From a virus: a DNA stretch of 20,528 nt. The position numbers and the translations under genes are program-made. The stretch covers positions 1-20,528 of IMG/VR virus record IMGVR_UViG_3300017743_000185, one strand, 5' to 3'. Numbering within the stretch: the stretch's first letter is position 1; each line of letters starts with the position of its first letter. Under the pieces are notes generated by a model that had not been told where the DNA came from, did no database searches, and saw nothing but the letters and a program-made list of their open reading frames with translations. This document shows, in pieces, positions 2,067 through 7,686 of this stretch.

Positions 2067-2325
2067 CTATACTACTCCATTGTTTAAGTTTAGATAATTT
2101 ACTTTCGACTGCTTCCTGTAAAGGTTCTTCTTCTAAGAAACCATACTCAAGAAGCAGGGAAACCATACATAGAACATCCCCTGCCTCTTGAAGTATATTA
2201 TCTAGGTGTTTAATCTCGTTGCCGAACCTGATAATTTTACTGCAAGCCATGCTTAACTCCGAGCATTCTTCCATAGTTATTACTAGAAGCTCACGCTCTT
2301 GTGGTGTTAGTTTGTCGCTAAGCAT
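2038..2325 (-). CDS. MazG-like nucleotide pyrophosphohydrolase
   Basis: 95 aa, all-alpha. It carries the metal-binding signature of the MazG / phosphoribosyl-ATP pyrophosphatase superfamily: E19-E20-x-x-E23 in the first helix and E47-x-G-D50 (EAGDVL) in the second. Such enzymes hydrolyse (d)NTPs to the monophosphate and pyrophosphate. In phages they are linked to nucleotide-pool control or to (p)ppGpp signalling in the host. The ATG overlaps the stop of the DUF932 gene (TAATG). Length and motif spacing fit a single-domain enzyme. The substrate cannot be told from sequence. Confidence 0.85.
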   Translation of the reverse strand: MLSDKLTPQERELLVITMEECSELSMACSKIIRFGNEIKHLDNILQEAGDVLCMVSLLLEYGFLEEEPLQEAVESKLSKLKQWSSIVDNHSGSVH

Positions 2326-3254
2326 TATGCCGCCCTTGCAAAAGCTTTACGCACAATCTCTTGACGATTAGCTCTGACCGAAGCAATGTTTCGGTTAGAT
2401 GCTTTGGTGTACGCACCTGAGTGAGTAGACCAATCTGTAAAGGCATTGTACAAAGCCCAACGATTCTGACCTAGACGTACTTTATATCTATGGAAAGCGT
2501 CCCAGATGTAGGCTACATTCTTACCAGTGCCTCTGTTATTGTCAACAACTGCTGAGGGCGATAAGTGCTGAGACTCTTCAATAAGCTTTGGTGAGCCTAC
2601 GGCATGGCATATCTCTTTGAAAGCTTGGTCAGAACTAACGTACTCGCCTTGCATTCTGTCCCATAACTCTCGCTCGTTGTTGAATACATCTAGTGCTTTG
2701 ACGATTAGGTTAGCACCATGCTCAATGTTAAGGCTCTTGGTGTGCTTAGCTTTATATACAGCTACCTCACCACCAATAAATACCTGTAGATTTGTACAAG
2801 CAGACTGTATAGCTGCGGCACTAATCATAAACGGGAATGTACCATCAATAGAACTAGTAGCAAGTAGGCTGAGAGACGCTGTATCGCCATCTGGAGTCTC
2901 ATAAGTATGAGCAGGTAGTCTATATTGAACGAAGCATCTAGCACCGTCATGCGAAGTTCTAATAGTTTCTTCGATGTCTGTGGTGTTAAGGTCTGAACGC
3001 TCAATGATAGAACGTGTAGAGTCTATCATCTTTCTGGGTGCTACAGCCTGATAGCCGTGACCATGAACGCCTAGCTCTTGACCTGTATCGATGCGATAGA
3101 TAACAGACTTGGAGCTACCTAGTTCTGTCCCACCATCATCAATAGAATAATATAAGGGTGCGGTATTTATATCAAAATCTGCTGACCCATATCCCTTATC
3201 TCTAAGGGACTGGGTAGCACCGTAGTTCTGAAACATAGGTGTTATGTTAGACAT
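2325..3254 (-). CDS. DUF932 family protein (phage/plasmid-like)
   Basis: 309 aa. The C-terminal stretch RWALYNAFTDWSTHSGAY (about residues 265-283), the N-terminal IYRIDTGQELGVHGHGY and the central FPFMISAAAIQSACTNL fit the DUF932 family, found in many phages and plasmids and often near recombination or replication genes. The biochemical role is unknown. It is coupled by one-base TAATG overlaps to both the gene before (3254) and the gene after (2325), placing it in the leftward cluster between the small-gene block and the nucleotide/replication genes. Confidence 0.85.
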   Translation of the reverse strand: MSNITPMFQNYGATQSLRDKGYGSADFDINTAPLYYSIDDGGTELGSSKSVIYRIDTGQELGVHGHGYQAVAPRKMIDSTRSIIERSDLNTTDIEETIRTSHDGARCFVQYRLPAHTYETPDGDTASLSLLATSSIDGTFPFMISAAAIQSACTNLQVFIGGEVAVYKAKHTKSLNIEHGANLIVKALDVFNNERELWDRMQGEYVSSDQAFKEICHAVGSPKLIEESQHLSPSAVVDNNRGTGKNVAYIWDAFHRYKVRLGQNRWALYNAFTDWSTHSGAYTKASNRNIASVRANRQEIVRKAFARAA

Positions 3255-5981: not shown

Positions 5982-6013
5982 AACTTTATACCTCACTCGT
6001 TGAATAGATTTAT

Positions 6014-6042
6014 ATTATACAGGACTTCCTTGTCCGAGTCAA
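6014..6042 (-). promoter_or_regulatory. Sigma-70 promoter for the small-gene block
   Basis: Minus strand: TTGACT (6037-6042), 17-nt spacer, TATAAT (6014-6019). It lies just after the stop of the 136-aa gene and upstream of the 29-aa gene. The spacer holds an inverted repeat (GGAC, 6-nt loop, GTCC). Confidence 0.7.
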
Positions 6043-6046
6043 ACAA

Positions 6047-6457
6047 TTACTTAGATAAAATCTCTAGGATTTTCTCTAGCTTGGTATCCATTGCATCGAC
6101 TCTCTTTTCAAGAGTGTCAACTCTGTCAGTCGCCTTCCCCTTCGGGGTAGATTTCTTAGAAGACTTAACAGTCTTAGCAGTCTTTTTAACTGTCGAAGCC
6201 TTTGGCTTCTTGATGAGGCTCATGAATTGTGGTGGAACACAATCCCATTCAAACCATTCAGTGGCTTCGCCATGAGTCATATAGCTATCGCTATCCTTGT
6301 AGTGTTTGTTCAATATAGCATTGAACACTTTGGTCAAGCCGTATCGCTCCGTAGGAGTCTTACTAGCTATGTTAGCGAAATGACAAGCTACTCCGTAGAC
6401 TTGACGTTGTGTTGCAATTTGATTGTTGTCGATTTTGCTGAAAGTCGCTGAAGTCAT
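6047..6457 (-). CDS. 136-aa protein with Lys-rich linker and C-terminal coiled coil
   Basis: First gene of the leftward transcript. Residues 1-80 form a globular part (RQVYGVACHFANIASKTPTE, GEATEWFEWDCVPPQFMSL). Residues about 83-109 are a Lys/Ser/Thr linker (KKPKASTVKKTAKTVKSSKK). The last 27 are a heptad coiled coil (VDTLEKRVDAMDTKLEKILE). The basic linker suggests nucleic-acid contact and the coiled coil suggests oligomers. GGAGA lies 8 nt before the ATG but is buried in the hairpin at 6459-6532. The coding DNA itself contains several perfect short palindromes (for example 6307-6327). Being first and early, it may act on the host, but that is inference. Confidence 0.8.
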   Translation of the reverse strand: MTSATFSKIDNNQIATQRQVYGVACHFANIASKTPTERYGLTKVFNAILNKHYKDSDSYMTHGEATEWFEWDCVPPQFMSLIKKPKASTVKKTAKTVKSSKKSTPKGKATDRVDTLEKRVDAMDTKLEKILEILSK

Positions 6458-6458
6458 A

Positions 6459-6532
6459 TTAGTTCTCCAAAATTTAAAAGTTGTTAGTTTCGTTAGAAAC
6501 TTACTAACAACTTTTTAATTTGGAGAACTTAA
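6459..6532 (-). promoter_or_regulatory. SD-sequestering hairpin in the leftward leader
   Basis: A near-perfect inverted repeat of roughly 33-nt arms with small indels and a GUUA/UAAC loop (6492-6495). Each outer arm ends in AGTTCTCC / GGAGAACT, and the GGAGAA next to the 6457 start codon is the SD of that gene. In the leftward mRNA the SD would therefore be paired with an anti-SD about 60 nt upstream, so translation would need opening of this stem. Confidence 0.8.
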
Positions 6533-6602
6533 TAACCATTTAAAAACATTTTAAAGTTTTTAAATGGTTAAAATTTGTACAAAATTTATTATAAATAAAT
6601 TT
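6533..6602. repeat. Tandem perfect AT-rich palindromes
   Basis: 6533-6570 is a perfect 15-bp inverted repeat (TAACCATTTAAAAAC, 8-nt loop). 6582-6602 is a perfect 9-bp inverted repeat (AAATTTATT, 3-nt loop). Between them lies AAATTTGTACAAAATTT, itself nearly symmetric. The block is almost pure A/T and sits between the two divergent arms, as expected for an unwinding element or for hairpins in a long leader RNA. Confidence 0.8.
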
Positions 6603-6848
6603 CGTGTGCGATAGAATTATGGGAGACTTTAAAAGTCTCAGGAGAAGATTTAAGCAAAGCTTAGAAATGCTTGTAAGTCGTTGAAAACTTTGGAGATTGC
6701 CAAGTAAAGCGTAGCTTTAAAGACTCGAAAATCTTTGCTCTAGTTTTGTAAACTAGAGAGTCTTGAAAAATCTTTATAGATTTTTGGCGTGTGCGCTCGA
6801 TAGATTCTTTAGAATCTCAGAAAATGTTGAAGTCTCAGAAGACTTCAA
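6603..6848. repeat. Chain of short perfect palindromes (leader or origin)
   Basis: No credible ORF. In order: GAGACTTT/AAAGTCTC (6623-6639), TAAGC/GCTTA (6651-6663), TAAAGC/GCTTTA (6705-6719), AAGACT/AGTCTT (6720-6764) enclosing CTCTAGTTT/AAACTAGAG (6738-6758), AAAAATCT/AGATTTTT (6766-6785), AGATTCT/AGAATCT (6802-6817), and TTGAAGTCT/AGACTTCAA (6827-6848). Loops are 1-4 nt apart from the enclosing stem. The octamer CGTGTGCG occurs at 6603 and 6788, each time followed within 3 nt by ATAGA or GATAGA. As RNA this would be a string of stem-loops in the leader of the leftward transcript. Confidence 0.75.
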
Positions 6849-7038
6849 AGGGGTGGGCAAGCTGCCATAGGGGGTACTGGGGATATATATACAATCTTAT
6901 ACATTTTTAGACGGTGTAGCATGTAAACCAGACAGGTCCGCAGCTTCATAGGGCTTTAAAGGCAGGAGCTAAAAAGCGGGTACATAGATAAGCATGATAA
7001 GCCATGCTCCATCATCTATATATAACCCGGGGGGCTAT
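6849..7038 (-). other. 5' part of the leftward transcript leader (G-rich/C-rich)
   Basis: No convincing gene. The plus strand has G-runs at 6850-6853, 6855-6857, 6870-6874 and 6879-6882 (a loose quadruplex pattern). The leftward RNA is correspondingly C-rich there, as in Rho-loading sites. Right at the predicted RNA 5' end (about 7016-7041) ATATA-GCCC and GGG-TTATAT can pair to a terminal hairpin. AGCATG/CATGCT (6991-7008) can form another. Confidence 0.5.
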
Positions 7039-7044
7039 ATGTAT

Positions 7045-7073
7045 ATTATACCCGTAGATTCGCAATCTGTCAA
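7045..7073 (-). promoter_or_regulatory. Main leftward sigma-70 promoter
   Basis: Minus strand: TTGACA (7068-7073), 17-nt spacer, TATAAT (7045-7050), perfect consensus. An A-rich tract upstream of the -35 (7075-7105, complement of TTTCTTCTTTTTTCTTC) could act as an UP element. The predicted start near 7038 gives a leader of about 580 nt before the first gene. The six bases ahead of the -10 (TACGGG) match the rightward promoter. Confidence 0.9.
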
Positions 7074-7110: not shown

Positions 7111-7139
7111 TTGACAAACCTTAATATTACGGGTATACT
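7111..7139 (+). promoter_or_regulatory. Main rightward sigma-70 promoter
   Basis: TTGACA (7111-7116), 17-nt spacer ending TTACGGG, TATACT (7134-7139). It is back to back with the leftward promoter; the -35 boxes are 37 nt apart and share one A/T tract. It should drive the terminase and virion genes, with transcription starting near 7146. Confidence 0.9.
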
Positions 7140-7220: not shown

Positions 7221-7283
7221 ATGACTAAAGAACTAGTATATATTTATAGAGGCGTAAAATACGTCAAAACAGTACAGGCATAA
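7221..7283 (+). CDS. 20-aa leader ORF (YRGVKY motif)
   Basis: Reads MTKELVYIYRGVKYVKTVQA, with an AGGAG SD about 8 nt before the ATG. It is the first translatable frame of the rightward mRNA and ends 4 nt before the small terminase ATG. The YRGVKY core resembles the short DUF4278-type motif (YRGVxY) found in tiny cyanobacterial and phage proteins. It may be a real micro-protein or a device that delivers ribosomes to the terminase gene, whose own SD is weak. Confidence 0.55.
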   Translation: MTKELVYIYRGVKYVKTVQA

Positions 7284-7287
7284 ATGG

Positions 7288-7686
7288 ATGGCAGAGAAAC
7301 AACTCACTACAAAGCAGCAATCGTTTTTAGATAATCTTACTAGCTGTGGTGGTGATGTAAAGACAGCTGCCGAACTTGCAGGATATGCAGAAGGTACACA
7401 CTACGCTGTAGTTAAAAGTCTCAAGTCTGAAATACTAGACATGGCTTCAAACATAATGGCACAGAACGCACCTAAAGCAGCTTCTAAGCTTGTTCAGATT
7501 ATGGATAGCCCTGAACCAATACCCCAAGCTAACATGCGTATACAAGCAGCACAACAGCTTCTAGACCGTGTAGGCTTAGGCAAGACAGAACGAGTTGATG
7601 TCAATGTTAATACAGGTGGTGGTCTATTTATAATCCCTGCAAAACAAGAGGTGATTATAGATGGAGATTATGAGGAGGACGAGTAG
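7288..7686 (+). CDS. Terminase small subunit
   Basis: 132 aa. The N-terminus LTTKQQSFLDNL...GGDVKTAAELAGYAEGTHYA (about residues 6-40) is the helix-turn-helix pattern of phage small terminases (KQxxFL.N...G....AA..AGY). This part recognises the packaging site. A central helical region (residues 45-95, AAQQLLDRVGLGKTERV) should make the ring, and an acidic C-terminus (DGDYEEDE) likely contacts the large subunit. It lies immediately upstream of the large terminase region. The SD is weak, so translation may be coupled to the 20-aa ORF. Confidence 0.88.
   Translation: MAEKQLTTKQQSFLDNLTSCGGDVKTAAELAGYAEGTHYAVVKSLKSEILDMASNIMAQNAPKAASKLVQIMDSPEPIPQANMRIQAAQQLLDRVGLGKTERVDVNVNTGGGLFIIPAKQEVIIDGDYEEDE

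Follow-up and report, generated by a model that had tools for sequence, protein, structure and literature searches.

What is the function of a chain of about ten palindromes packed between the two divergent gene arms of a marine phage genome? The DNA considered here, below called the window, is a virus record of 20,528 bases belonging to the HMO-2011/HTVC115P kind of marine phage lineage; its large terminase and that of the Pelagibacter phage HTVC115P share 67.8% identity over 87% of the length. Packaging and capsid genes are situated rightward from position 7288, and leftward from 6457 there are genes for a single-strand-binding protein, a pyrophosphohydrolase and small proteins without assigned function. 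The 830 bases between the arms contain no open reading frame of at least 50 amino acids starting and ending inside, and a tRNA search yielded none. This intergenic region carries two divergent promoters of the sigma-70 type, the leftward one with 12 and the rightward one with 11 of the 12 consensus bases. The palindromes are placed between the leftward promoter and the first gene of the leftward arm, denoted P, that is, in the stretch, about 590 nt long in the window, which the predicted leftward transcript would carry as an untranslated leader. The features of the region are collected in Table 1, where the base pairing of the transcript-start hairpin was judged by eye. A possible 20-codon frame with a good ribosome-binding site is seen just ahead of the small terminase gene (7221–7283, plus strand), and the leftward operon includes a DUF932 protein (2325–3254, minus strand).

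Table 1. Features of the intergenic region and the adjacent gene P (positions in the window; arms in bp, loops in nt).
Feature	Position	Strand
Leftward promoter, TTGACA – 17 nt – TATAAT, 12/12 consensus bases	7045..7073	-
Rightward promoter, TTGACA – 17 nt – TATACT, facing the terminase genes	7111..7139	+
Conserved transcript start, possible small hairpin TATAGCCC-CCC-GGGTTATA, one G-U pair in the transcript sense	7021..7039	-
Element E2 (from alignments): CTGGTTTACA, ATGTATA.GATTGTATATATA, G or C run, ATGGC.....GCCC	6849..6950	-
Box 1, CTGGTTTACA	6922..6931	-
Hairpin, arm 9, loop 4	6827..6848	-
Hairpin, arm 6, loop 4 (AGATTC...GAATCT), paired variants in relatives	6802..6817	-
Hairpin, arm 8, loop 4	6766..6785	-
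Hairpin, arm 9, CTCTAGTTT-ACA-AAACTAGAG, nearly invariant (helix 1)	6738..6758	-
Box 2 (CTAGTTTACA), inside hairpin 6738..6758	6756-6747	-
Hairpin, arm 6, loop 3 (helix 2)	6705..6719	-
Hairpin, arm 5, loop 3 (helix 3)	6651..6663	-
Hairpin, arm 7, GAGACTT-TTA-AAGTCTC (helix 4)	6623..6639	-
Hairpin, arm 9, loop 3	6582..6602	-
Long perfect hairpin, arm 15, loop 8 (helix 6)	6533..6570	-
Terminal long hairpin burying the P ribosome-binding site GGAG 6468-6465 (helices 7-8)	6461..6531	-
Perfect hairpin, arm 6, nested in the terminal long hairpin	6486-6501	
Gene P, first gene of the leftward operon	6047..6457	-

The preliminary description of this DNA counted about ten perfect palindromes in 390 bases, and this count is accurate: the segment 6459–6848 contains ten non-overlapping perfect hairpins (arm at least 5, loop 3–8), while dinucleotide shuffles (n = 300) have 3.98 on average and nine at most, none of the 300 reaching ten. 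Four of the hairpins have arms of at least 9 bp, against a shuffled mean of 0.04. With arms of at least 7 and loops of 0–8, there are 19 hairpins across the 20.5-kb window, seven of them in 6458–6850. Two details had been overstated. The hairpin with 33-nt arms is real but imperfect, 6457–6488 being 78% complementary to 6503–6534 in an ungapped comparison, and the left part, said to be almost pure A/T, is AT-rich, but at 6459–6605 reaches only 81% A+T.

In folding energy the real sequence is far ahead of its shuffles. The minus-strand RNA of 6458–6860 has a folding energy of −113.1 kcal/mol, while its shuffled versions average −58.6 (a gap of about 54 kcal/mol, z = −11.2), and the plus strand of the same segment stands out too (z = −8.6). 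For the entire leader, 6458–7038, the z-scores are −10.2 on the minus and −9.1 on the plus strand. The strand comparison was extended to 24 of 41 non-redundant leaders, the window included, with 25 shuffles each; the mean z was −11.0 for the minus and −9.3 for the plus strand, the minus strand being more extreme by z in 17 leaders and the plus strand in seven.

The relatives were collected by a search with the small terminase, which yielded 360 of them (the analysis used the best 80 of the 360), and a search with P, which yielded 67. Out of 155 loci, 110 have both the small terminase and P, and these yield 55 different homologues of the intergenic region, counting the window's own, all with the same promoter–leader–P layout. 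The leftward promoter is perfect in 54 of the 55 and retains 11 of 12 bases in the remaining one. The leader starts with AGCCC followed by GGG in 48 regions, and its length, measured from 6 nt past the −10 box, ranges from 579 to 855 nt. The number of hairpins with an arm of at least 7 varies from 4 to 13 per region, some relatives carrying extra ones, and in many of them the counterpart of the long hairpin 6533..6570 has perfect arms of 18 bp. The 41 non-redundant leaders comprise 28 close and 13 distant ones; covariation and tetraloops were counted on the 28 close leaders only. The alignment of the close regions took in 32 of 37, 20 of these 32 being among the rows listed.

In three relatives with contigs of 48–50 kb (G001, G002, G005), the homologous leader is the largest hairpin cluster; the other clusters of G001 are two small ones of three hairpins each, and none of the three contigs has more than threes elsewhere. 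A promoter is found at the place homologous to the rightward one in these three relatives and in the more distant G009. The latter has no P in its 48.9 kb (this is the contig of locus L079) and no hairpin cluster at the leader, which folds with z = −5.0 (20 shuffles). No P was detected at eight loci (L054, L055, L056, L061, L070, L071, L072, L079), which all keep the promoter and match the first 390–489 columns of the leader profile (E from 1e-48 to 1.6e-73), a match that covers element E2; in L070 and L071, P may simply be cut off, since these contigs extend no more than about 800 bases upstream of the terminase. Six relatives further removed can still be aligned with the hairpin parts, at 60–64% identity. 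The replication arm of G001 includes a gene for a Cas4-domain exonuclease (L161:511–1374, plus strand).

Among 50,697 phage records, neither P (protein search) nor the leader DNA (distant-mode search) has a match at E 0.01. With the leader profile, isolated phages yielded matches upstream of the small terminase in HTVC103P (E 0.093) and HTVC033P (E 0.29), matches at other places in CRP-1 (E 0.039) and HTVC115P (E 0.21), and nothing in HMO-2011. The folding z of the corresponding region is −3.9 in HTVC033P, −1.8 in HTVC103P and 0.0 in HTVC115P. As the profile matches are weak (E 0.04 or worse) or absent, the isolated phages were not counted as members. Boxes resembling CTAGTTNACA are seen by eye in the corresponding regions of HTVC115P and HTVC103P (L151, L152).

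Several short elements of the leader are conserved as sequence. G001, G002 and G005 each match CTRGTTDACA just twice, at the homologues of boxes 1 and 2, and the form CTRGTTTACA (6922–6931 and 6747–6756 of the window, minus strand) occurs twice in each of the eight close leaders listed and in these three contigs. One block of element E2, at 6870–6882 in the window, is a run of G in some leaders and a run of C at the same place in others; L142 and L148, nearly identical by eye, differ in this very block. A conserved peptide in E2 was considered and rejected: as judged by eye, the third codon is variable and the frame stops early in group B, hence the element is not coding.

In the hairpins, it is the pairing that is conserved, while the letters change. 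The covariation set was formed by the window and 27 close relatives and spans roughly the 3′ 300 nt of the chain, the structure being derived without G–U pairs. In these 28 leaders 89.1% of cells are paired, compared to 77.4% with shuffled partners, and 47 of 73 pairs change on both sides. The covariation score is 0.328 versus 0.132 in shuffles that ignore kinship (0 of 500) and 0.06–0.16 in slid versions, the latter contrast being inflated, as the structure was derived from the same 28 sequences. RNAalifold with default settings retains a smaller set of 38 pairs, 19 of them changed on both sides. Among 162 ordered pairs of leaders that are 80–98.5% identical, 39% of changed stem pairs are compensated. 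One pair of helix 2 is CG in 11 leaders, GC in 11 and UA in six, with no wobble form, and the outer pair of helix 4 covaries with 100% of cells paired. At the place of hairpin 6582..6602, 17 of the 28 close leaders, as counted by eye, have a G..A tetraloop in the transcript sense (GATA in six, GACA in five, GAAA and GTAA in three each), and the window has none.

The preliminary description had named two signs that would speak against its claim, shuffled controls folding equally well and stems broken by uncompensated substitutions in homologous phages; in fact, the shuffles fold far worse, and compensation is seen for 39% of the changed stem pairs in relatives. The evidence for conserved pairing, drawn from comparison of sequences, is strong, and since pairing is kept as the letters change, the chain is probably useful.

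A search for covarying helices across the whole leader in the same 28 leaders, a small set, had five local hairpins at the top (scores 0.48–0.67). The best distant match is a 6-bp helix with a score of 0.317, which we take for chance, the other distant ones scoring lower, and no convincing long-range helix was found. With local pairing in every one of the best-supported helices, the leader resembles a row of separate hairpins more than an ornate global fold.

The last of these hairpins is connected with gene P. The P ribosome-binding site is paired in the last long hairpin in all 28 close leaders, and in 27 of them it has an exact upstream complement, the site itself varying (GGAGA, AAGGA and others). 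In the distant leaders the site is paired in one of 13; here P may in some cases start a few residues away from the assigned codon, as several matches begin at residues 2–6. The P protein has a conserved helical N-terminal part, a Lys/Ala-rich linker and a C-terminal helix that resembles a coiled coil. Its alignment with 37 homologues contains 27 invariant columns, 25 of them within residues 1–75. It belongs to one PHROGs family of unknown function and has only sub-threshold matches in Pfam; the structure model is modest (pLDDT 71), and the fold search against the PDB matched no solved fold, the two matches having E 8 or worse. The basic linker together with a coiled coil would suit an oligomer that binds nucleic acids.

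The explanation that we tentatively prefer, with a probability just short of even, is that the leftward operon of replication genes has a structured, untranslated RNA leader acting on continuation or stability of the transcript and on translation of P. The locus has a promoter directly upstream, an untranslated leader, the first gene of the operon downstream and compensatory change. The leader RNA suggested earlier is supported by the conserved promoter, the covarying stems and the ribosome-site hairpin of the close group, but a strand-specific tolerance to G–U pairs was not found in the stems. That the operon is early is presumed from the genes it contains and from the host type of its promoter. 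At this perfect consensus promoter the sigma-70 RNA polymerase of the host would start and produce the long leader ahead of P. The emerging RNA would fold into independent short hairpins separated by conserved single-stranded stretches, and these hairpins may guard the long untranslated leader from cutting or termination, by shielding it either from RNases and Rho or, through a put-like effect on RNA polymerase, from termination. The last long hairpin would mask the ribosome-binding site and thus delay or condition translation of P; RNase III or an interaction of P with the RNA could release the masked site. The one or two long hairpins are possible RNase III sites.

The evidence that the palindromes function at the level of RNA rather than DNA is moderate. 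It consists of the promoter, the ribosome-site hairpin of the close group, the G..A loops in the transcript sense at one hairpin (17 of 28) and the slightly stronger folding of the minus strand (17 of 24). On the other hand, the plus strand folds nearly as well, the ribosome-binding site is unpaired in 12 of the 13 distant leaders, and the missing wobble preference opposes an RNA-level reading.

The wobble pairs deserve a closer look. G–U and A–C cells in stems number 90 and 92, respectively, in the close group and 37 and 56 in the distant one; the counts are 258 versus 228 over the ordered leader pairs and 53 versus 57 in the 28 close leaders. Hence G–U is not preferred over A–C, and in the distant group it falls below A–C. 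For comparison, in the E. coli 16S and 23S rRNAs the same count in hairpins, at arm 6, is 16 for G–U (8.8 in shuffled sequences) and 11 for A–C (10.0 shuffled), the G–U excess resting on small numbers; in the leaders, at arm 9, it is 15 for G–U (5.1 shuffled) and 17 for A–C (6.3 shuffled). In the transcript sense the leaders are C-rich and G-poor (22% and 16%), and the G–U to A–C ratio expected from composition is 0.73 in the 28 close leaders; since such composition favours A–C, the observed equality may hide a mild preference for G–U. Still, such a preference is weaker than expected for a constraint at the RNA level only, which weakens the case for stems maintained as RNA alone.

Another feature that fits poorly is a purine/pyrimidine period of about 9.5 nt. 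The self-match of the leaders peaks at lags 9 (z = 30), 19, about 27–29 and 38–39. The period is hardly visible in A+T versus G+C, it remains when the hairpins are masked, and its signal is strongest at the leader, in G002 as well as in the window. Out of 20 distinct rows without a P match, ten fall under the lowest P-bearing row (0.068), a comparison in which some P-less rows are contigs ending before P and kinship is a confounder.

These features bear on the main rival to a leader RNA, a role at the level of DNA, which is a real possibility, if an unlikely one. Here the palindromes would form a replication origin or unwinding region next to a strong promoter, or else both strands would extrude hairpins whose structure is the recognised feature, and transcription through the region would be incidental or would prime replication. 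Pairing kept without strand preference is expected if both strands matter, and the period continues through the linkers; however, it is close to 9.5 and not to 10.5, the helical period of B-DNA. The 81% A+T near P and the position of the primase/helicase and DNA polymerase genes of G001 in the same arm also agree with a DNA role, whereas the last hairpin of close relatives tracks the P ribosome-binding site, which a DNA role does not need. The GC skew, proposed earlier as a check for an origin, does flip here, with the cumulative minimum at 6001–6500, but the flip is not decisive, since transcription diverges at the same region and the skew would flip anyway.

A combination of the two levels is quite unlikely. 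In such a case, an array of about 400 nt, built of purine/pyrimidine units of about 9.5 nt with neighbours strictly Watson–Crick complementary on both strands, would work both as DNA and as a leader RNA and would be bound by P, its DNA form being either hairpins, extruded or single-stranded, or a wrapped complex with protein that doubles as an origin.

It is improbable that the palindromes have no selected function and that template switching at imperfect palindromes keeps making perfect ones in tolerated non-coding DNA. Correction of quasipalindromes through template switching is described in the available text of PMC7202029, and compensation of 39% of changed pairs with no wobble preference agrees with this process. 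Against it are the alignment of the hairpin parts with six distant relatives in a compact genome and a last hairpin tracking the ribosome-binding site in every close leader.

A packaging site for the adjacent terminase small subunit is very improbable. Indeed, pac and cos sites are often found upstream of the small terminase gene, where this region lies, and a series of short repeats might fit the ring shape of a small terminase. But the palindromes are 440–830 bp away from that gene, beyond the promoter, and the contig ends, admittedly a weak proxy as they are ends of assemblies, are scattered over the intergenic region: 23 of 50 incomplete loci, ending at most 1300 bases upstream of the gene, were examined, and 15 of the 23 could be placed on the intergenic region of a relative. 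Thus a fixed genome end at this region is unsupported.

Finally, mobile palindromic elements, also suggested in the preliminary description and here taken as REP or PeSL-like, are hardly conceivable and were rejected, as the hairpins, variable as their number is among relatives, occupy homologous places, differ from each other in sequence and have their largest cluster at this one locus.

A published account of the leader was not found in the open-licence literature, and absence from it is not proof. HMO-2011-type phages are reported to be widespread and dominant across the ocean (PMC9038755), and none of the terms hairpin, promoter, terminator and non-coding occurs in the available text of that paper. 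PMC12753301, in its available part, treats other pelagiphages, HTVC022P and HTVC027P, and of the many candidate RNAs in the available part of PMC2864571 none was recognised as this leader. Being conserved for pairing over sequence and situated behind a perfect host-type promoter, the leader is a concrete target that could reveal how early phage genes are controlled through RNA in hard-to-culture bacteria. Through two puzzles, the missing G–U preference and the 9.5-nt period, the choice between RNA and DNA becomes directly testable.

Several known systems resemble the chain in part. CsrB-type sponge RNAs are chains of short hairpins and likewise have a run of about ten or more of them, but here GGA is present in none of the ten loops on either strand (by eye). 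The promoters of the N4 virion RNA polymerase, which are extruded DNA hairpins, also have short stems and 3-nt loops, and their non-conserved bases are replaceable if pairing is kept, as stated in the available part of PMC4496689. Unlike these, the promoters here look like ordinary sigma-70 ones. An N4-like virion RNA polymerase was not found among the 3371-aa and 1809-aa proteins and nine further open reading frames of G001, and the 3371-aa protein was rejected as a candidate, having no match to an RNA-polymerase family and no such motif. This late-region protein (L159:9027–19142, minus strand) has a long Gln/Ala/Asn-rich tail and two acidic EF-hand-like stretches seen by eye; it belongs to no PHROG family, and its only Pfam match is to dockerin and sub-threshold.

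GOLLD, ROOL and OLE, RNAs several hundred nucleotides long that occur in phages, are similar to the leader in being large and structured. In the available text of PMC12286853 they are treated as large ornate structured RNAs of bacteria. Here, by contrast, the best covarying helices are local and Rfam gives no match at the gathering score; at E up to 5 the segment 6300–7350 has 14 matches, all below the gathering scores and ten of them to models of microRNA precursors.

The closest parallels are early leaders of phages. The lambda pL leader, with nutL, an RNase III stem and the N ribosome-binding site, likewise combines a strong early promoter, a long structured leader and a stem at the ribosome-binding site of the first early gene. 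It differs in that here no N-like protein and no boxA or boxB were identified, the first gene product having a Lys/Ala-rich linker and a C-terminal helix. The HK022 put element is a pair of hairpins, compared to some ten hairpins over 400 nt here, and the two are likened by description rather than by sequence. In both cases the structure belongs to a nascent early transcript of a phage, and put is reported to suppress pausing and termination of early genes (available text of PMC9378689). While it passes the defining sequence test of no named family, the leader may be regarded as a variant of the known phage early leaders exemplified by HK022 put and the lambda N leader.
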